Shown here piece after piece: positions 10,397 to 21,208 of a stretch of 24,496 nucleotides of DNA. Position 1 is the first letter of the stretch, and each line of letters opens with the position of its first letter. A program made the position numbers and the translations under genes. This DNA is from a virus. The stretch spans positions 1-24,496 of IMG/VR virus record IMGVR_UViG_3300010300_000100. The stretch is one strand, 5' to 3'. The notes under the pieces were generated by a model. It made no database searches and was not told where the DNA came from. It saw only the letters and a list, made by a program, of their open reading frames with translations.

Positions 10397-10795
10397 CTAT
10401 AGTACGGTGTTCGTCTCTACGTTGAAGTACTCATCGATGCAATCAATGCACGCCTCTAGGCCCTTGCATATCTCCGCCTTCCATCCCTTCTCCCGCAACC
10501 GATGCTGCCACATCTTTTGATGCTCACTGGCCCGCCCTGTTGAGGTCTTTACCTCCAGTGCTAGACCAACATATCCATTCCTTGGTTCGAAGATCAAGAT
10601 GTCAGGGATACCTTTCTTGTAACCCGCCTGCTTCATCTTCAGCGCTGTGTGCATGGCTACCCTGACACCTCCGACCGTCGCCGAGAAGAGCGGTGGTGGC
10701 GCCATAGCCTCCAAGTGATCAATAATAAGTACCTGAATATCGTGCTCGGGCGAACCGTTGGTGCGCTTTGTTCTTTTTTGCCTTTTTCTATACAT
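10397..10795 (-). CDS. VRR-NUC domain endonuclease
   Basis: The 132-residue product (start at the ATG at 10795) matches the VRR-NUC nuclease fold: PEHDIQ (Glu17, Gln21), GGVRVAM, KKGIPDILIF with Asp65, then LALEVKTSTGRASEHQ with Glu81, Lys83 and Gln93 as the active-site set. Such domains are PD-(D/E)XK-like and act as small phage nucleases, possibly cutting branched DNA or helping packaging. The frame is open up to 10834, but the first 13 residues overlap the amidase coding sequence. The 5' part overlaps the amidase frame by 139 bases. Confidence 0.85.
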   Translation of the reverse strand: MYRKRQKRTKRTNGSPEHDIQVLIIDHLEAMAPPPLFSATVGGVRVAMHTALKMKQAGYKKGIPDILIFEPRNGYVGLALEVKTSTGRASEHQKMWQHRLREKGWKAEICKGLEACIDCIDEYFNVETNTVL

Positions 10796-11211
10796 GCTTC
10801 GGTGTACCATTGTCGGACGTCGAAACTGGGGCACTGTTTCTTGACCCCCTTGACGTCTCTGTGACCTAGAATAGCGGCCCCTGGGTATTGTTGTTGAAGA
10901 TCTTGAAGGAGATTGAAGAGAGCAGTCGTTTGATCCGCTGTCCTATTGTCCTCCGCTTTCGAAGATTCCTCTGCCATGCCTCCAACCCATGCGATTCCGA
11001 TAGAATCGAAATTCTCACCCTGAACATGAGCCCCAGGCCTGTGAATTGGCCTACCATCTTCGATCTCACCCGATCGGCGAATGATCTTGTGGTATCCCAC
11101 ATCGGACCAGTTGTTCTCATTGATGTGCCAGTTTCTAATTTCCTTTACTCCGATGTCCATGCTTGGCTTGGTCATCGTGCAGTGGACTATGATCTTGCGT
11201 ATCTTCCTCAT
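10657..11211 (-). CDS. N-acetylmuramoyl-L-alanine amidase (endolysin, T7 lysozyme type)
   Basis: The start is the ATG at 11211 in an ATGA overlap with the holin-like gene; the upstream ATG at 11262 lies inside that gene. Residues 1-138 form an Amidase_2/PGRP domain: IIVHCTMT (His10), GYHKIIRRSG (Tyr40, His41), GAHVQGENFDSIGIAWVGG, and LGHRDVKGVKKQCPSFD (His117, Cys127). His10, His117 and Cys127 are the expected zinc ligands. The enzyme cuts the amide bond between muramic acid and the peptide at lysis. T7 lysozyme is about 151 residues; the last ~46 here are basic, look unlike a domain and are read over the nuclease gene, so the natural end may be earlier if a frameshift or error lies near 10795. 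Confidence 0.85.
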   Translation of the reverse strand: MRKIRKIIVHCTMTKPSMDIGVKEIRNWHINENNWSDVGYHKIIRRSGEIEDGRPIHRPGAHVQGENFDSIGIAWVGGMAEESSKAEDNRTADQTTALFNLLQDLQQQYPGAAILGHRDVKGVKKQCPSFDVRQWYTEACIEKGKKEQSAPTVRPSTIFRYLLLITWRLWRHHRSSRRRSEVSG

Positions 11212-11414
11212 AAGCCCTGCTTTGCCAGCAACACCTTCAGCTCGTGGATACCTTCCACGCACTCCTTGAGCATGCCTTTGAGTTCCGACTGATCGCTTTC
11301 TAGCCGGTAGACCCGGCCCTTGAGTTTCGCCACTTCGCTGTTCAGGCTAACCCATACACCTATCGCCGTGACGATAGATGGCGCCAACGCCATCACAAAA
11401 TCCATGTCCTCCAT
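11208..11414 (-). CDS. Holin-like protein: one membrane segment plus coiled coil
   Basis: The 68-residue protein has one hydrophobic segment (residues 7-24, VMALAPSIVTAIGVWVSL) followed by a heptad-rich helix to the end (EVAKLKGRVYRLESDQSELK...). It sits directly upstream of the amidase with an ATGA overlap, the usual place of a holin or of an XhlA-like lysis helper. XhlA-type proteins carry the membrane segment at the C-terminus, so the order is reversed here. Holin or lysis-accessory function is inferred from context and topology. Confidence 0.65.
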   Translation of the reverse strand: MEDMDFVMALAPSIVTAIGVWVSLNSEVAKLKGRVYRLESDQSELKGMLKECVEGIHELKVLLAKQGL

Positions 11415-13294
11415 TATTCTGAGTAAATTTTCGATGCTCCGTTTTCGTCTACTTTGATGTAAATGCCGCCGGGCAACTCGTCGCCCAATCGGAATACCTT
11501 GCGTCCTGACAGATCGTAGTAACCGTAGATGCCTTCAGGCAGGGTGCCCGCTTCGATGCTGCGTGTAGGCTGCATGACAAGGCCAGCTGTGCAATCGGTG
11601 CCCCACAAAGGGAAGAACGCCAGAAAGTCCTCCACGTCTACGTCGTCATCACCATCCAGATCATAAGCACAGTTCTGCGTGCAGCCAAAGTTGAGCAGCA
11701 GGTCCAAGAGATCCGCATTGCCAACCACGCCGTCCTGATCGAAGTCTCCCAGGCAGGGTTCTCCATCCTCAACGCAGAAGGGTACCTCCAGCTGACTCCA
11801 ATCCCCACTGACATCAACCGTGATCATGTTGTCGTTTACCCACATCACCACTTCTCCGCCGTAAGGGATGCCGTCACCACCGTTGTCATAGATCATCAGT
11901 GTGTAGCAATCGTCATACAGGCATTGGTCGTACTGACGGAGCGTGATGCCCGCAGCCCAAGGTCCATCTTGCTGTATGGTCTGCCCCTCGCTATCGAACA
12001 GCGCCCATGCCGTCTCACTGCCAAAGAAATCAGAGGTGAAGTCCATGCGCCATAGATCACCCTCTTCGTACAACACGAACCCTGACGCTTGGTTGTTCGC
12101 AGGGTACTGATCCCCAAGCGCGATGACTTCAACCACAAAGCCACCGTCAATGGCAGCATCTTCAACCACTACTTCAATGCTGGTGTTTGGGGCTACGTCG
12201 AAAACCTCTTCGGTGTACACCCCGTTGCTCGATGTGATCTGTACAGTAGCCATCCCATACTCCGTGGTCCCTGTGTTGGCAAGGCCTACCTTGACGTCTT
12301 GTTCCAGCAAGCAGAACTGCTCCTCGTAGTCGAGGTACTGGATACCTAGATCGAACTCCACTGGCGGGAGACACTTCAGCCCATTCGCCAGGTTGGGACG
12401 ACCAGTCTCTATCGTCTGATGCATGCGCTCTGCCTGACCTTCCGTAAAGGCCTCTCTACAGATCTCGCCCGTGTAGTCCATGTAGTTGTCCACTAGGGCG
12501 TCAGGGCACGACGGTGCGGAACAGATCCAGTTCGTAGTTGTTGGTGGCGTATCGCACACTCTATCGCCAGCGACCAAGCAGTTGCCTCCCTGATCACAGC
12601 TAGTGGTATTTTCAAACGTGTGCAGCAACCCCAGGTAGTGGCCCATCTCGTGGCTAAGGACCTTGCCCAGGTTGTAGCCATCATCCTCCAACCTGCTTGA
12701 TAGCATCACGATGCCGTCCAGGCAGTTGTTGGTTGGGCCTACATAGGCGTACCCCTGGATACCACCACCGCCGTTGTTGCCATTGATCTCAGGCACGACA
12801 TATATGTTGACGTACTCATCGACGTTCCAGCATCCCAGCGACTTGAGACTACCGTCGGGATACCCATCATCGAGTCCTGATACAGCCACCCCGTCGGCCA
12901 TAAACTGAGCGATGCCGCTGAGGTCGTAGCGTACGATGCCTGTTGTTGGTGCGCCAAAGGGATCGCGCTGCGCTAGACATAGGTTGATCTTCGTGTCCAC
13001 ACCGCTGCCATCACCCGTGCCGCCAGGCACCTTACGGAACTGTTCGTTCATGCGGTCCAGGCTGTAAAGGATGTCGGAGTCTGGCAGGTTATGGGAAGTG
13101 CCATTGGGCACCCCCTTGTGCATGATGTGAAAGACGACAGGTAGTGTGACTTCCTCCACGTCATCGAGACGTACGCTGTGCTTAAACACGCCGCCGAAGC
13201 CCATGTATACCGGGCTTGTCAGCTGCGCACATTCCTCCTGCGCAGAGCACAAGAGGATGGCCATTCCAAGTAGTGTTGTTAGTAGGTATTTCAT
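11414..13294 (-). CDS. Secreted M43 (pappalysin-like) metalloprotease with dockerin-like region and T9SS-type sorting domain
   Basis: The 626-residue precursor has a signal peptide (MKYLLTTLLGMAILLCSA, likely cleaved before QE). The catalytic domain contains the zinc motif HEMGHYLGLLH (His215, Glu216, His219, Gly222, His225), a CDTPPT segment near 247 and the Met-turn NYMDY near 270, all typical of M43B proteases. A CARDB-like beta domain (about 313-405) and a second beta domain (about 408-510) follow. Two EF-hand-like dockerin loops (DFDQDGVVGNADLLDLL, DLDGDDDVDVEDFLAFF) lie at about 515-565. The last 40 residues (YGYYDLSGRKVF, GGIYIKVDENG) resemble the type A sorting domain of the T9SS, found only in Bacteroidota. 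The gene overlaps its upstream neighbour by 4 bases (ATGA) and its downstream one by 1 (TAATG). Confidence 0.85.
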   Translation of the reverse strand: MKYLLTTLLGMAILLCSAQEECAQLTSPVYMGFGGVFKHSVRLDDVEEVTLPVVFHIMHKGVPNGTSHNLPDSDILYSLDRMNEQFRKVPGGTGDGSGVDTKINLCLAQRDPFGAPTTGIVRYDLSGIAQFMADGVAVSGLDDGYPDGSLKSLGCWNVDEYVNIYVVPEINGNNGGGGIQGYAYVGPTNNCLDGIVMLSSRLEDDGYNLGKVLSHEMGHYLGLLHTFENTTSCDQGGNCLVAGDRVCDTPPTTTNWICSAPSCPDALVDNYMDYTGEICREAFTEGQAERMHQTIETGRPNLANGLKCLPPVEFDLGIQYLDYEEQFCLLEQDVKVGLANTGTTEYGMATVQITSSNGVYTEEVFDVAPNTSIEVVVEDAAIDGGFVVEVIALGDQYPANNQASGFVLYEEGDLWRMDFTSDFFGSETAWALFDSEGQTIQQDGPWAAGITLRQYDQCLYDDCYTLMIYDNGGDGIPYGGEVVMWVNDNMITVDVSGDWSQLEVPFCVEDGEPCLGDFDQDGVVGNADLLDLLLNFGCTQNCAYDLDGDDDVDVEDFLAFFPLWGTDCTAGLVMQPTRSIEAGTLPEGIYGYYDLSGRKVFRLGDELPGGIYIKVDENGASKIYSE

Positions 13295-13701
13295 TCTAAA
13301 CTATCATCAGGGTAAAAGAATCCTTCCTTGAGCATGTAGGTCACATCTCGCAAGGTGACTGTTGATGGAAGCATTACTCCAAACGTCAGTATGGTACTCT
13401 GGTGGATGCTACTTGACAAGAAGTATCGCTCCGCTTCAGACACCTCTGGGAAAAGAGCCACGAGTCGTTCCAGAACCGCTTCGGGGTGACACTCGATGAG
13501 CCTGTCAGTGAAGACCTCTAGCGCAGCTCTTCCTTCCTGTATAGGATGATCTATGACACTGAACAGCTTGACGCCCTTCTCGTCCTCACGCTGAATGTGG
13601 ACAGGCCTGCTAATATTGTAGAGTTCTCTGCTGATAGCTTCAGCGCGCTCCTTGCTCCTGAGCAGACCTTGAGGTTCAATATTGATAAAAGCTTGACTCA
13701 T
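13291..13701 (-). CDS. Protein of unknown function downstream of the hub/fibre gene
   Basis: The 136-residue soluble product has two helical halves (LLRSKERAEAISRELYNISR, HPEAVLERLVALFPEVSEAE) and ends FFYPDDSLE. No domain is recognised. It overlaps the large tail gene by four bases and the protease by four bases. The location suggests a virion component, a tail-fibre chaperone or a late accessory protein. Confidence 0.6.
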   Translation of the reverse strand: MSQAFINIEPQGLLRSKERAEAISRELYNISRPVHIQREDEKGVKLFSVIDHPIQEGRAALEVFTDRLIECHPEAVLERLVALFPEVSEAERYFLSSSIHQSTILTFGVMLPSTVTLRDVTYMLKEGFFYPDDSLE

Positions 13702-16700
13702 GGATTGTAATCATCTCCGATGTCGTGATACGTGTTCATCTCGTTGTGAATGGTGCCCATATCGCTCAGCTCTAGATCGCCGTCGTCGCTGTCAGTCGCG
13801 AAGAACACCAACTCGTGAATGTAACCGTTGAAATATATAGAGTTCAGCCCAGTTCCTATTTGAGCACCGACATGCATGATCTCACTGCCTGGGTTGTCGT
13901 CTCGAAATAAGGTGGTATAGTCGTTTGATGCGCTGCCATTGGCGGGTACTGAGGGGTAGAACGTTCCATTCAAAATTGCCTGGTTGTTCCCTAGCCTTCT
14001 AAGCGTGCTGATCCAGACGTTGGACGTTTCCTCACCTATTGAATCAGTGGCAGTGTCTAACTTATACTGCTGGTTGCTGTCGGATCTATGTTGGTGCCTA
14101 AGCTTATCACCATTTCCGAGGATTGCTACCTGAAAAACCTGTTGACCAAGATTCGCTCCACCATTGCCTGATCGCCACAAAGCCGTAATAGGTCTTGCAG
14201 ATGAATCATCCAGAGAACTGAACACAGCTGCGACAGTGTTGGCTGCACTGCCTAGCAGCGGTGTAGGGTCCGTCAATCGCAATCGTTCAAAATTGGAAAA
14301 TTCCAGGCACGGCGTAGTGGCAATGTTGTTGAACGATGATTGGGCAGGAATGTTATTATATAAGGTCGGGCGTGAGTTGGCTACGTTTGCGTCTTGAGTC
14401 AAATGGTTCGTGCCATACTGATCGTACCACGTGATTATCTCGTACGTGCCGTCTAGATCTCCATTCTGGTCCAAAGTCAGTCCAGTCGTGTCCAAGTCAC
14501 CGTTGTCATCCCAGCCGACATTGATGAAGTTTTGTCCATCGGTGACACGCACAAGATAGTCCGTCGTTGTATCGGTAAGCAACCTGCGCAATCCGTACGC
14601 CGCTGTGAGTTCGTCGGTGTAGTCATCGAGAGGGTAGGTCACGTCGTCAACGATCTCGTGGGTGATCAGGAAAGTGTAGTTCGTGCGCTTCTTGGCTGCT
14701 GATGGGTTTGTATCCGCAGTGTCAAAATCGTACTCCCCTAGGAACTCACGGATAACACGGTAGGCCGCTGCGTTCGTCACACCATCCTGCAAGGCCAATT
14801 CAGTAGGGAACGATGGCCCTGTCGAAATCCATGTTGAGTCCGTATCCCTTAACGATCCAAAGCCAATATAGATCTTGCGCCTGCTGAACTGACCCTCACC
14901 GGGAGTAGCGGTATCTTCCTCGATGTACAGACCTGTCTGGTCTAGCTGCACCATGTATACCGTCTCCAAAGTCTCGTTGGCCCCAAGGACAGATGACCAA
15001 TCGGCGTTGAAATTGGTTTCGCATGCAGGGTCCAATCGACCATAGCGCAGCGCTTGATCGAAACGCTTGTCAGGGGTGCTGCCAGACTCGAAGGTGAAGC
15101 CATCAATGCCTACCGGATTCTCATCATCGTCGATGCTGATGAATTGCAGCTTGTTGCTATGCTCCCCTACAGTATTGTCAATCCCACCTATGTCTGTGGT
15201 GGAGTTCGTAAACGTTTCGAAGCCTACGGCGTTACCGCCCAATCCAGGCTTGACTACCCACTTGCCACCACCCTTGTAGGTTGTAACAGTACCCACATCT
15301 TGGTATCCCTCTATGTCCGCATAGCGCGTAGACCGAGCAACTAGAAACTCCCCGCTGACGCCACCGTTCATAGTCCAAGTCTGAGCTGTAGGCAGCAGGG
15401 TCCTGGTGTTGGTTTTATCCAGCTGATCGGTTTCAATCAACCGCCATGGCGCAGGCAGCGTAGGCGCTGACGCCTTCGGGATATAGGTTCCCGCGTAGTA
15501 TCGCTGCATCTCGCCTACCAGCTCCAGGTATTCCGTAGCAACAAGGGCATGGAGACTATCGTACGGCTCCTTGATGGGTGAGGCAGTCAGGTCGTTCCCG
15601 TGCGTTGTCCACCGTAGATTCTCCACGTAGTTGTCTGTAAATACCGAAGCACTGCTCTTCACCCTGCCCCATAGCGTACCCCAGACATGGGTGTTACGGA
15701 ACTGCAACCTAGACCCGAGACGTGAGCTTCCAACGTCAAGGATTTCTACAGCCTTGGTGTCCTCGTTGTCCACGCGGGTGATGACGTCAAAGTCATCATT
15801 GCCATCGCCAAGGAAGAGGCATGCACCAACAAACGTCACTTCCTTTGGGAAGTAGTAGTATCCCGGAATAAAACCTACCACGCCACCGATGTTGCCGAAG
15901 TTTACATTCTCATTCACCTGCTGTATCCCACCCGTGCCATCGGCATAGGCGCTACGCCACAGGGGATCGTGAATGTTTTGCTGCGGACCCAATAGAGGGA
16001 TCGTGCCAGCAAAGTAATCGCCATCAGGGTCGTTGTAGGTGGTATGGTTCCGTCGCGGGCCATGGTTCGGTAGCCACACCTCGACGCCTTGCTCCGTATA
16101 GAACTCCTTCCACACCGTGTCGTCAACGTCATTGTACAGTGGTAGCTCGAAACGGATGTTCTCCAGCATGTACTGGTTGTGCGTATTCTCGTTGTTGGTG
16201 AGTTCAAAGATGACGCCACCACCATCGCAGGATGTATCCTCGCCTTGGATTTGACATGCGATAGGTGCGTAAGTAGCTCCGTTGTACTGCTGGCAAACGG
16301 GATAGGCTTCGGTGCCCCAATCGTCACCGGAGTTGACACTGTCACCATGAGGCATGATGATCTCGTACCACGCGTCGTCGTAATCGTCCGATGGAGTGCC
16401 TGTGCCATCCCAGTACACCCACGTGAAAGATCGATACAGCTTCCTGTAGTACATGTTGTCGACGGCCTTGTCGATGCGGATGCCGTCTAGATCCGACCCC
16501 TCGGAAGTGTTGATGTGCGTGTATACCTTCCTGCTTAGCCTGGTGTACCGTCCATCTTCGTCTTTGAACTGGATGCGCACTCGGGCAATCATGGTCTGCC
16601 CCGCCAAGGTATAGGTCACGTTGGCTGTGGTGTACCGGAAAAGCGCTGCCACACCCATCTGAAAGCGCAGGTTCTGCCCACTGTTCAGGGTGAGGTCTGT

Positions 16701-18038
16701 CACTGTCTCCGCCTCAAAACCCATATAACCGCTGGGGTCAGCTGGGTATTTGTAGTGGTTGAAATTTATGTATTCACTACCAAACGCTGGGTCCTGGTTT
16801 GGTATCTGAGGATCCACTTGGCTGTCATAAACCTTGAAGACGTACTGCCGATGGTTGGTATCACCAGGGATAAAATTGTTGTGCTGGTCCGTAGCTGTAG
16901 ATCCCGGTCTTGTGTTGGCCCATACACCGCCAGCCCAGATACGGTCGCTACCCCCCTCTTCGTGAGTCATAACTGCTGATCCGAATGGGAAGTTGCGCGT
17001 CTCTACCGCGCCAGCCAGCCATAGGTAGTCATCATCAAAATCGTTAGTGAGCATAACCGCCTCGTCATCTTCGTTCATGACGATGGCGTTCAACCCATTT
17101 TCCCAGTCTGCATAGATCTCGTAGCGATGCGACTTGGTGTCCGTGGTTTGGAATGACAAAGCTTGCCTATTGACAATCCAGTAGCAGCCACGCCAGTGGC
17201 AGACGATAGCGCCAAACGTCTTGCAGATGTCCTCCAGCACGTCAGCTGTATTGTACAGTACTCTTTTTGGTGCAGGCTCCCGCAAGCGATCGCGTTCTTT
17301 CTTTTTACCCCTAAAGGTCTTGCCGTAGACCTTGAGCCTTCGGAGGATGCTGTTCTGCGGGCGCCACTTGTAGAAGGTGCCGTCATCTACCTGCAAGCTG
17401 AATGGACCGTAGTCAGCCTCGTATCCCGGTAGTCCTACCTCACGGAACGAAACAATGCTAGTGGTTAGGACAGGAAGTACGCTCGTCGATGCAAATCGTT
17501 CTAGGATGAAGTCGTGAGCTGGAATCTTGGTGAAGCATGCCGCAAGCCAAAAATCCAATGACTTAAAGCCTACATAGGCTGCGGGCGGAGACACGGTCGT
17601 GCTGCCAAACTCGCGAAGGTTGAGTTGCCCCAACCCATCGGTCCATTGCGCGGTCATGGTGATAGACTCATTCTCCACCACGAAAGAGATCGACTCAGCA
17701 AGAAGGTTGCCATACCACTCTAGTTCATCCTTGTCTGCAGTATCGCCCCTGTACATCACCAGGATGATCTCGTCTTCACTAAGCTCTAAGATCGTCCCCC
17801 ACTTGTCGTACTGAGCCTCCGTCAGGTTTGCAGTAAACGACAGGCTGCTACCCATGATGGCCCGTACCAAGTCCCTATCACCCTGCCACTGGATCTGTAT
17901 CCCTGGGTCGAAGAGTTCTAGCTCCTGACCTTTTCCAGGTAGCGCCCCTTGCGTAGCCCGGGCGTAGATCTCCACCAGGTATTCCTTGCCTGTGGTCCGC
18001 TGACCATAAACTGTACTGAAGTGCTTCGTATACGCCAT
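13698..18038 (-). CDS. Large tail hub / receptor-binding protein with C-terminal lectin-like domain
   Basis: This 1446-residue protein follows the tape measure gene (one shared base, TAATG), the usual place of the distal tail/hub protein and fibre. The first ~300 residues are a beta-rich domain (EYLVEIYARATQGALPGKGQ, AQYDKWGTILELSEDEIILV) like baseplate hub proteins of Bacteroidota phages. Repeated beta-rich domains follow. Residues about 1146-1440 resemble a concanavalin A/LamG-like or GH54-type jelly roll: AYGLRRLLTDTTTDYLVRVT, then GWDDNGDLDT, WYDQYGTNH and LEFSNFERLRL. That domain most likely binds or trims a surface glycan and so sets host range. I cannot identify catalytic residues, so enzyme activity is open. 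Confidence 0.8.
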   Translation of the reverse strand: MAYTKHFSTVYGQRTTGKEYLVEIYARATQGALPGKGQELELFDPGIQIQWQGDRDLVRAIMGSSLSFTANLTEAQYDKWGTILELSEDEIILVMYRGDTADKDELEWYGNLLAESISFVVENESITMTAQWTDGLGQLNLREFGSTTVSPPAAYVGFKSLDFWLAACFTKIPAHDFILERFASTSVLPVLTTSIVSFREVGLPGYEADYGPFSLQVDDGTFYKWRPQNSILRRLKVYGKTFRGKKKERDRLREPAPKRVLYNTADVLEDICKTFGAIVCHWRGCYWIVNRQALSFQTTDTKSHRYEIYADWENGLNAIVMNEDDEAVMLTNDFDDDYLWLAGAVETRNFPFGSAVMTHEEGGSDRIWAGGVWANTRPGSTATDQHNNFIPGDTNHRQYVFKVYDSQVDPQIPNQDPAFGSEYINFNHYKYPADPSGYMGFEAETVTDLTLNSGQNLRFQMGVAALFRYTTANVTYTLAGQTMIARVRIQFKDEDGRYTRLSRKVYTHINTSEGSDLDGIRIDKAVDNMYYRKLYRSFTWVYWDGTGTPSDDYDDAWYEIIMPHGDSVNSGDDWGTEAYPVCQQYNGATYAPIACQIQGEDTSCDGGGVIFELTNNENTHNQYMLENIRFELPLYNDVDDTVWKEFYTEQGVEVWLPNHGPRRNHTTYNDPDGDYFAGTIPLLGPQQNIHDPLWRSAYADGTGGIQQVNENVNFGNIGGVVGFIPGYYYFPKEVTFVGACLFLGDGNDDFDVITRVDNEDTKAVEILDVGSSRLGSRLQFRNTHVWGTLWGRVKSSASVFTDNYVENLRWTTHGNDLTASPIKEPYDSLHALVATEYLELVGEMQRYYAGTYIPKASAPTLPAPWRLIETDQLDKTNTRTLLPTAQTWTMNGGVSGEFLVARSTRYADIEGYQDVGTVTTYKGGGKWVVKPGLGGNAVGFETFTNSTTDIGGIDNTVGEHSNKLQFISIDDDENPVGIDGFTFESGSTPDKRFDQALRYGRLDPACETNFNADWSSVLGANETLETVYMVQLDQTGLYIEEDTATPGEGQFSRRKIYIGFGSLRDTDSTWISTGPSFPTELALQDGVTNAAAYRVIREFLGEYDFDTADTNPSAAKKRTNYTFLITHEIVDDVTYPLDDYTDELTAAYGLRRLLTDTTTDYLVRVTDGQNFINVGWDDNGDLDTTGLTLDQNGDLDGTYEIITWYDQYGTNHLTQDANVANSRPTLYNNIPAQSSFNNIATTPCLEFSNFERLRLTDPTPLLGSAANTVAAVFSSLDDSSARPITALWRSGNGGANLGQQVFQVAILGNGDKLRHQHRSDSNQQYKLDTATDSIGEETSNVWISTLRRLGNNQAILNGTFYPSVPANGSASNDYTTLFRDDNPGSEIMHVGAQIGTGLNSIYFNGYIHELVFFATDSDDGDLELSDMGTIHNEMNTYHDIGDDYNP

Positions 18039-21000
18039 TATCCAAAAGTACGATCGAGAGCGCGTTTGCCTCGTTGGTTGATCAGTACGAGGTCGGTACC
18101 GACGATACCTCCCTCTACTTTGATAGTTGGTTGTGTGCCCCCTTCACCTTGAGCGGGTCCAGATACTGTGTTGGATTTGATGCCCGTGAGGCCACTGCCA
18201 ATGAACGACCCCAAACCACCCTGCGTCGCTGCTGCTGCGGCACCCCGAAAGCCCCCTGATCCAACGGTGGCTCCCCCTGAGACAATAGCCAGGATGGTGT
18301 ACAAGGCGATCAAGGTGATAAGCTTTGCGACAAGGGCGTAGAAGGTGTCGAGGAAAGACTTCTTCAAAACAGTAAAGAAGTCTGCACCATCGCGTGCTGC
18401 CTGCAAGAACGCGTCACCAAGGAACTGTACCTGGCTGCCAAGGAACGAGGTAAGGGTGGCGGCATTGGCGATGTCTTCCTGTGCCTGCAACGAGATGCCA
18501 AGCTGCTCCTCTGCCTGTAGCAAACCAGCCGACTCCGCTGCTGTGAGCTTGCGTTGATCCCTTAGCTTACGGTAAGCCTCTACGAGCTTGGTAAGATCCT
18601 CTACCTGCTTGTTCGTCTGCGTGCTGAGGTCTACATCCCTTCCTAGGCTTTCGGCAATGCTCAGCTGTCCCAGTGCCTCGTTCGCGTCGTCAACCGCATC
18701 CTCCAGCTTTTGGATGTCCACCTGATTGATGGCTTCGTTCAGAGCAAGAATGCTGCGACGGAACTCACCTTCACTAATCTCCCCTAGCAGGAACCCTTGA
18801 GATAGGATGTTGACTTTCTCACTTGCGCGCTGTGCTGCTGCCTGCAATACGTCAAGCTCCGTGGCAGCGCCAAGGATGCGCTTGAACTGCAACGCTGTCG
18901 CACTGGCGTTAGTAGCAGAATCGGTGAACTCCTCGAAAGCCTGACGGAACTGAGCGCGTTCAATCCTCTCCTTTATCTCGTCGATCTGGTCCGCTACAAA
19001 AGAGAGTGACCCACCACGGACACCGGCCTGAGCTAGGCCTGTAAACTGCGCTTGCAATGCCGACAGCTCAGCTTGCAAGAACTGCAACTCCGTGCTTTGA
19101 CCTAGCTCACGTGTGGCTTCATTCAGCAGTTGGGCTTCAACGCGAGCGCTACGGATGCCAGCCACCTTGATGTCTTGCTCAAGCTTGCGCTGCAGGCGTT
19201 CGTAGCTGGTTACACCTTTGTCAATCAGGTCGGCCACTTCCACTGCCCCTGACGTAGCTGCTGCTACTGCCGTCTTGCTCAGCTCGGCGATGATGCTGTC
19301 TACCAGCTTTTTCTGCTGCTCCAAGGTCCCGCCACCAGCGATTAGGTCGCCCAAGAAGTTCTGCGCCTCTGGGATGCCACCTGTCTCCAAGATTCTGAGG
19401 AGACCAAAGTCCTTGATCCTAGCGATCTCGTCGCTTACATCGTAGATGTCGTTTTTCGCCAGGCCGAACTCAGCCAGTGCCTTGGCAATATTGTCTTGCG
19501 TTTTCGCCCATCCTTTCTGCAGAGCATCGATGTTCGTGACGCTGTTGCCGAACTCCGCACCATACTGCTGAGCCAGTACGAGCTGTTCGTCGGCAAGATC
19601 TTTTAGCTTCTGCTGCTTTTCCTGAATGGCCGCCGTGACAACTTCAAGCTGTTTCTGCAGCCTATATTCATTGGCGAGGAGAACGTTGCGGTCCCTGCGG
19701 ACACCATTGATACCCTCTTCATTGCTGCGTACGATACCCAGACTTCTAAGTATCACACCAACACCAAAGCCCGCTCCAAACCCGCCTCCGGCAAGTTCCC
19801 CTAGTTGCTGGCTGCCGAGATCCTCCCGCGCATCCGTGACTGCCTCGAGCGCCTCCTCAGTTTGCTTCTTCAGAGCCTGCAGTGCAGGCAATGAGGAATT
19901 GGAAATATTGCCACCAACCTCTGTAGCTAGATCAGAAAAAGTCTCCAGCGCACCGTTGATCTTTTCCTGGTTTTGCAGGTACTGCTTCTGCTGAAGCGCA
20001 TTGAAAGCAATAACACCGACAAGAGCGGTTAGACCTGCTGTTGCAGCTACGGTGCTGAGTCCCAACGCGAGCAATGCGCCACCGAGCTGTGAGATGACTA
20101 CGATCAGAACAGGAATCACTGTACCCATCGTGATGAACAGACCAATCCCTTCTTTGGTATTCTCACTTACAGTGTCGAAGCGCTTCGCAGCCAGCTGAAG
20201 CAAATCAGCAGCAATTGCCACGAATGGCGCTAGTCCTTCCCCAAGGGAAATAGACAGGTCTTCAACACCCGCCTTCGCCCGTGCTGTAGAAAGGAACAAC
20301 TGCTCTCCAAGTCCAGCGTTCAAAGCATCTAGCGCCCCCTTGCTGTCCTTGAGTTTTTGCTCAAGAAGCTTGATCTCAGTCGGCAACTGAGCGATAACAG
20401 CACCGGCTAGACCCGCTCTGTTTTTAAGAAGGTCGAAGATCTGCGCCGTATCAAGCGTGCCTGACTCCAACAATCGGATCTGGTCCTCCCCAAAGCCGAG
20501 TTCTTTACCAAGCCGAATGATGGTGGTCTTCAGACGCGTACCACCACGCTCTGCTTTCTGGCCTGCATTGGCGAGGGCTCCAAGGGTAGCCACTGTTCGC
20601 TCTAGGTCGTAACCACTAATCTTGGCTACGGAACCTACGTTCTTCAAGGCGCCGGCCAGGTTGTCTACGTCGAGGGCGCTGTTTTGGAAAGCGACGGCGA
20701 AGATGTCACCGATCTCTTCGAAACTCCTGGTCTCTCCAGTAAACTCACGGAACTGCCGCTGCGTCTCTGCAATGCTGGTACCGACCTTGTCTAGGCTACC
20801 GCCGAATATCTGGCTGAGCTTAACAGAAGTAGTCAGGGCGCCAGACGCTTCCTGCGCATTGAAACCAAGCTTGGTAAGTTCCAGCGCAAGCGTGGCCGTC
20901 TCCGTAGATGTAAACTTGGTCTCTCTACCTAGATCCCTGGCTGTGGAAATAAGGCCTTCAATGCCTTCTTGGCCGATGGCACGCAGCTGCGTGGAGATCT

Positions 21001-21208
21001 CACTGAAGTTGCTGGCGATGCCCAACGAAGCAGCGCCGATCAAACCTAACCCCAAGCTGAGGGTACGTGTAAGACCGGCGCCGAAGCGTTGCGCTTGTTG
21101 TTGGAATCTGGCTATTTCGGTGCGAGCGATCTCGCTGTTACGCATGAACTGCGTAATATCCAGAGTTAGAATCGCCGACAGCCGGCTTGCACCTGTAATT
21201 CCAATCAT
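18038..21208 (-). CDS. Tail tape measure protein
   Basis: The 1056-residue protein begins with a TP901-type tape-measure domain (LTLDITQFMRNSEIARTEIA, then EISTQLRAIGQEGIEGLIST, TALELTKLG-like repeats and LANAGQKAERGGTRLK). It has long helical, coiled-coil-rich stretches and hydrophobic segments at about residues 45-68, 350-405 and 945-985 (LVAKLITLIALYTILAIVSG), as expected for a protein that sits in the tail tube and later enters the host membrane. Using about 0.15 nm per residue, the tail would be near 160 nm, consistent with a siphovirus. It overlaps the chaperone gene by four bases. Confidence 0.95.
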   Translation of the reverse strand: MIGITGASRLSAILTLDITQFMRNSEIARTEIARFQQQAQRFGAGLTRTLSLGLGLIGAASLGIASNFSEISTQLRAIGQEGIEGLISTARDLGRETKFTSTETATLALELTKLGFNAQEASGALTTSVKLSQIFGGSLDKVGTSIAETQRQFREFTGETRSFEEIGDIFAVAFQNSALDVDNLAGALKNVGSVAKISGYDLERTVATLGALANAGQKAERGGTRLKTTIIRLGKELGFGEDQIRLLESGTLDTAQIFDLLKNRAGLAGAVIAQLPTEIKLLEQKLKDSKGALDALNAGLGEQLFLSTARAKAGVEDLSISLGEGLAPFVAIAADLLQLAAKRFDTVSENTKEGIGLFITMGTVIPVLIVVISQLGGALLALGLSTVAATAGLTALVGVIAFNALQQKQYLQNQEKINGALETFSDLATEVGGNISNSSLPALQALKKQTEEALEAVTDAREDLGSQQLGELAGGGFGAGFGVGVILRSLGIVRSNEEGINGVRRDRNVLLANEYRLQKQLEVVTAAIQEKQQKLKDLADEQLVLAQQYGAEFGNSVTNIDALQKGWAKTQDNIAKALAEFGLAKNDIYDVSDEIARIKDFGLLRILETGGIPEAQNFLGDLIAGGGTLEQQKKLVDSIIAELSKTAVAAATSGAVEVADLIDKGVTSYERLQRKLEQDIKVAGIRSARVEAQLLNEATRELGQSTELQFLQAELSALQAQFTGLAQAGVRGGSLSFVADQIDEIKERIERAQFRQAFEEFTDSATNASATALQFKRILGAATELDVLQAAAQRASEKVNILSQGFLLGEISEGEFRRSILALNEAINQVDIQKLEDAVDDANEALGQLSIAESLGRDVDLSTQTNKQVEDLTKLVEAYRKLRDQRKLTAAESAGLLQAEEQLGISLQAQEDIANAATLTSFLGSQVQFLGDAFLQAARDGADFFTVLKKSFLDTFYALVAKLITLIALYTILAIVSGGATVGSGGFRGAAAAATQGGLGSFIGSGLTGIKSNTVSGPAQGEGGTQPTIKVEGGIVGTDLVLINQRGKRALDRTFG

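Follow-up and report, generated by a model that had tools for sequence, protein, structure and literature searches.

A pappalysin-type protease gene at the boundary of phage tail and lysis genes, with a probable shortened type IX secretion signal

Mirolysin of Tannerella forsythia, a bacterial M43 (pappalysin) protease, is a KLIKK cargo of the type IX secretion system (T9SS) by which it is secreted in its own host, and a cysteine-switch mechanism acting via Cys23 has been described for it (PMC6949598). T9SS type A domains on phage proteins have been reported for Cryophage (Bellas et al. 2020), where they were read as using the secretion system of the host (PMC7468147). The Cryophage cargos, an endoglucanase, a GH39 protein and a PA14 protein, belong to one phage and vary between its variants (PMC7468147). 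The BFVD contains uncultured-virus proteins annotated with T9SS sorting domains as well. A third group of related proteins consists of multi-domain M43 proteases of Flavobacteriales (for example L006, L012, L114 and L117), which share with the phage protein studied here a core of 500 residues, composed of the M43 domain and beta-sandwiches, at 33-45% identity. Several of these host proteases end in the same dockerin-like domain as the phage protein; however, they stand in a chromosomal context and their C-termini are longer and variable, unlike those of the phage copies. In contrast to Cryophage, one conserved M43 family is found here in many phages, beside the lysis genes and usually together with a T9SS type B cargo. 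In the open-access literature, neither an M43 family in phages nor its association with a type B cargo was found to be described. Phage-borne T9SS cargo was already known from the one report found, that of Cryophage; the recurring M43 module and its type B pairing appear to be new.

The window, i.e. the whole stretch of DNA that was analysed, is a virus record of 24,496 bases. The M43 gene was located on the minus strand at 11414..13294 and encodes 626 amino acids between an ATG start and a TAA stop; the original prediction had given this position but no strand. The predicted overlaps with both neighbours were found. The start of the gene shares ATGA with the end of an upstream 136-aa gene (13291..13701, minus strand), which resulted in no family match in Pfam and PHROG profile searches, and its stop forms a TAATG overlap with the start of a downstream gene for a 68-aa protein (11208..11414, minus strand). 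The latter adjoins the M43 gene in relatives too and matched the holin family phrog_1296 with E=0.0012, which is weak evidence for a putative holin. It overlaps by ATGA with an Amidase_2 gene (10657..11211, minus strand), for which the matches to phrog_822 (E=7e-58) and PF01510 are strong evidence of a predicted endolysin. The operon ends with a VRR-NUC nuclease gene, identified by a profile match (10397..10834, minus strand). In the opposite direction, the 136-aa gene is preceded by a gene for a 1446-aa tail-region protein (13698..18038, minus strand), 32% identical to the protein at the same place in a relative (L090), and by the gene of the tail tape measure protein (18038..21208, minus strand; PHROG matches). 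The order along the minus strand is therefore connectors and major tail proteins, tape measure, 1446-aa protein, 136-aa protein, M43, holin-like protein, endolysin and nuclease. L002, a viral contig of 5.6 kb out of an IMG sample, encodes a tape measure protein identical to that of the window across 1,030 residues, and thus the phage population of the window recurs.

The assignment of the protein as an M43-type protease was confirmed by Peptidase_M43 (PF05572; E=2.4e-17, 63.7 bits against a cut-off of 23). The nearest solved structures by sequence were mirolysin (1.4e-18) and ulilysin, and the Foldseek fold search led likewise to mirolysin/ulilysin (6e-13). The zinc-binding motif HEMGHYLGLLH was read at residues 215-225 (12620..12652, minus strand), as predicted, and the Met-turn NYMDYT at residues 270-275 (12470..12487, minus strand), where N270, M272, D273 and Y274 are invariant in the aligned relatives. 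The window protein is very probably an active protease. The expected signal peptide was recognised as well: a hydrophobic N-terminus at residues about 1-19 (13238..13294, minus strand) was assigned as a Sec signal, in agreement with a helix at residues 2-15 of the structure model. Cys22 (13229..13231, minus strand) is a candidate cysteine-switch residue of the propeptide; it lies at the position of Cys23 of mirolysin and is invariant across 21 aligned relatives. The following residue is Ala, and the conserved CG motif is therefore absent, in contrast to the Cys-Gly of mirolysin. The catalytic domain, the Met-turn and the N-terminal Cys are shared with mirolysin, whereas the phage-encoded protein has two additional beta-sandwiches and a dockerin-like domain, and its C-terminal tail is not of the KLIKK type.

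In the AlphaFold model (mean pLDDT 76) the signal-peptide helix, the catalytic domain, two beta-sandwiches, a dockerin-like pair of loops and a C-terminal hairpin were distinguished; most of residues 226-279, the Met-turn region included, was modelled poorly. The two beta-sandwiches comprise residues 316-391 and 402-508 (11771..12349, minus strand), and the first of them is weakly CARDB-like in a relative (L189; sub-threshold CARDB match). The dockerin-like loops that had been proposed were recovered by profile search and model as a double Ca-loop domain at residues 512-570 (11585..11761, minus strand), although the profile match was weak (NF041540; E=0.0096, 16.3 bits, below the cut-off of 29). 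The domain is accordingly graded as dockerin-like only and not as a type I dockerin. In two marine Bacteroidota MAGs, G017 (L006) and G018 (L012), the domain matched roughly 30 places per genome, many of them near a stop codon, hinting that the host lineage may commonly use it as a C-terminal domain for sorting or anchoring.

Scanning viral contigs with the M43 protein or the 1446-aa tail protein singly gave no hits, and viral relatives surfaced once the M43 protein was aligned with a Haliscomenobacter relative. The search of IMG/VR with the family alignment yielded 111 confirmed stretches; from the best 80 of these 111 and from earlier scans, at least 51 distinct full-length phage copies were obtained, and the HExxHxxxxxH motif is kept in 51 of 51. 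PHROGs contain no family for the M43 protein, and PADLOC gave no match for it and three neighbour proteins. The terminase phrog_2 was detected in 7 of 16 viral records and for that reason cannot alone certify each contig as phage; for the window and its close relatives, phage identity is established by the tail, connector and lysis genes. The sole INPHARED match (L004, MT837139.1), deposited in GenBank as 'Bacteriophage sp.' from a faecal virus sample, was rejected as a phage, since it is actinobacterial DNA that reads like a chromosome, with trigger factor and other housekeeping genes. The PLSDB plasmid matches were distant bacterial M43 proteins only. A tandem pair of M43 genes was observed on a 96-kb viral contig (L092, 9806-14049), with the active site and the C-terminal tail intact in both.

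The window protein ends in LPGGIYIKVDENGASKIYSE, and residues 587-626 (11417..11536, minus strand) form a shortened T9SS type A-like tail with PxGxY and a K near the end. In T9SS C-terminal domains (CTDs), conservation is highest for PxGxYVV and KxxxK, two motifs within the final 22 residues that bear the secretion signal (PMC5445135). The predicted type A-like C-terminus was not recovered with the single protein. The tail alone resulted in no Pfam or NCBIfam T9SS match (TIGR04183, PF18962) even at E<=10, and reached 5.1 bits (E=0.54) against a type A profile built here from bacterial C-termini. Among single relatives, L086 matched positions 26-71 of TIGR04183 with E=7e-4 in a one-genome search, below the cut-off, and another type A match was sub-threshold with E=0.011. 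The prediction was borne out by the family alignment: the aligned phage tails matched the type A profile in hhalign with a probability of 94.9 (E=4e-8; best of 200 column shuffles, 3), and a 16-tail alignment matched T9SS type A with 96.7 (E=4e-10; best shuffle, 9). This match spans the C-terminal half of the type A domain only. The pattern YDLSGRxV...GIYI...KIYSE, defined after seeing the family, occurred in 3 of 200,000 shuffles of the protein's own C-terminus.

The tail pattern is kept in 44 of the 51 copies taken from the best 80 of the 111 stretches and earlier scans, while 6 stop at the dockerin-like domain and 1 is a variant. In the ten host genomes first tested, the phage tail profile gave no match at E<=0.001; with a positive control and a looser limit, the profile matched phages at 1e-15 to 1e-23, and no host match was stronger than 0.001, the best of them falling on ordinary T9SS C-termini. 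With about 40 residues, the window tail is without the complete beta-sandwich CTD of 70-100 residues, and its modelled region is mainly a hairpin. For P. gingivalis, an intact CTD fold was reported to be essential (PMC11285876). As the window tail lacks the first half of this domain, it is a probable but unproven, putative export signal.

Of the copies taken from the best 80 of the 111 stretches and earlier scans, 49 extend far enough downstream to show the gene next after M43, and in 37 of these it is related to a T9SS type B cargo. The type B domain of this partner was over the cut-off in the copies tested (TIGR04131, 42-45 bits against 35; PF13585, 49-60 against 27), and such a domain was above the cut-off in 8 of 16 phage records. 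This partner is absent from the window and from the L189 group. Two natural fusions, L245:1035-3890 and L247:89-2971, contain M43, the N-terminal domain of the partner and the type B tail in one open frame (TIGR04131, 35.0 and 35.6 against 35; PF13585, 56-58 against 27). The fusions are good evidence that the M43 protease and its partner would share a job and a route. Considering the family-level match of the tail, the adjacent type B cargo in most relatives and the fusions, export through the T9SS, as suggested originally, is the best reading; it is likely for the M43 family and probable, to a lesser degree, for the window copy. Near a holin-like gene, two relatives encode a further protein of secreted type that bears a T9SS type A domain, at L089:14278-16716 and L091:14332-16401 (both minus strand; 35.6 bits against 23 in L089), and this pair diverges faster than the M43 pair of the same phages.

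The near phages of the window were found through the primase. In 7 of 10 of them, the window counted, M43 lies between a tail protein and the lysis genes, which agrees with the fixed place expected of a phage gene. The expectation of the same gene at the same position did not hold for the other three (L140, L141 and L142), which are window-like, with the tail region adjoining the lysis genes at a natural empty site; M43 is therefore accessory. Where a lysis gene was detected, the distance from M43 to a lysis-family gene was at most 1.5 kb in 19 of 25 loci, compared with 5.1 expected for other ORFs, related contigs not being independent; the proximity test at 500 bases was not significant. The window-like order is tail, M43, (type B), holin-like, endolysin. 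In this group the position suggests late expression of M43, as had been predicted. Late expression is not general, because in the L087-type and L088/L091-type phages the M43 strand is opposite to that of the neighbouring lysis or late genes. That opposite strand also speaks against a protease packaged in the virion as a tail-tip or adsorption enzyme. Such a role would suit a gene directly after the tail genes and the absence of the T9SS-like tail in some relatives, but the signal peptide, the conserved secretion-type C-terminus and the type B cargo as next gene in most relatives make it very unlikely.

The place of the gene might also indicate a third lysis step, in which the protease helps to breach the outer envelope or surface layer in the manner of the spanins of other Gram-negative phages, with surface trimming not being the main function. 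The order M43, holin-like, endolysin is indeed fixed, with codon overlap in the window and L189 type, and it is kept whether the endolysin is an amidase (window) or a Peptidase_M15_3 (L189). Nevertheless, the three relatives with tail and endolysin genes yet no M43 imply that it is not needed for lysis, and the multi-domain architecture and sorting tails indicate export rather than periplasmic action; this explanation is judged unlikely. Nutrient scavenging, by which a secreted protease would digest extracellular protein and the infected cell would import the peptides for phage production, is equally unlikely. It accords with the host relatives of the 500-residue core, multi-domain secreted-type M43 proteases present in 62 of 249 Flavobacteriales genomes, and with the hydrolases with T9SS type A tails reported for Cryophage (PMC7468147). 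On the other hand, the neighbouring holin-like and endolysin genes and the late-type gene order leave little time for feeding, and the enzyme is probably made as a zymogen. Surface trimming near the time of lysis is tentatively preferred to a role in feeding or in breaking the envelope, with a likelihood a little short of probable.

In a tree with host proteins, nine phage sequences were placed on one side of a branch with support of 100/99, nested among Flavobacteriales proteins. A single origin of the phage copies is unproven because the host sampling was limited. For one pair, L089 and L091, dN/dS was determined to be 0.10 for M43 and 0.05 for the partner, and the phage gene is almost certainly under selection. 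The alternative that the gene had been captured from a host was upheld for its ancestry but not for a recent capture kept for host benefit: the phage copies that were sampled fall into a single clade of their own, diverged and under purifying selection. Lysogenic conversion by a recently acquired host gene (a moron) that benefits the host would be in line with the nesting among host M43 proteins and with an accessory gene at the tail-lysis boundary, but the clade is old and the closest host copies are just 33-45% identical. Furthermore, a tyrosine integrase (PF00589) was found in 0 of 22 records, in a search of lysogeny genes limited to this integrase type; this argues against a lysogenic host-benefit gene, which is regarded as highly improbable, and is, like the gene order, in keeping with the late role. 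From the relatives, the hosts are presumed to be T9SS-bearing marine Flavobacteriales.

The account preferred here, held with slightly more belief than doubt, is that of an accessory late zymogen protease which is exported by the host Sec and T9SS and cuts surface proteins around lysis. The protease would be made as an inactive zymogen, leave the cytoplasm through Sec and cross the outer membrane through the host type IX system by its shortened type A-like signal, in most relatives together with the type B cargo of the next gene. Activation would follow on the cell surface or beyond it, once the propeptide has been removed (cysteine switch) and Ca bound, and the enzyme could then cut host-surface or matrix proteins around lysis. 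The benefit may be an easier release, with fewer progeny lost on debris, siblings or receptors. The originally suggested action on receptors or adhesins and the block of superinfection are hypothetical effects. Counting against this account are the lack of a single-protein T9SS match, the half-domain tail, the missing partner in the window, the six tail-less relatives and the three empty sites.

Phages of several dissimilar types share the module, which frequently occupies a constant position next to the lysis genes; naturally vacant sites and gene fusions occur as well. It is possible, although somewhat short of probable, that Flavobacteriales phages widely carry this phage-specific pappalysin lineage as a module, mostly coupled or fused with a type B T9SS protein, and that it hijacks the host T9SS shortly before lysis with a minimal half-domain signal of 40 residues. 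The short conserved tail may offer a handle on the minimal T9SS signal sufficient for export. If the account is true, marine Bacteroidota phages would use the surface-secretion machine of their hosts for exit or exclusion.
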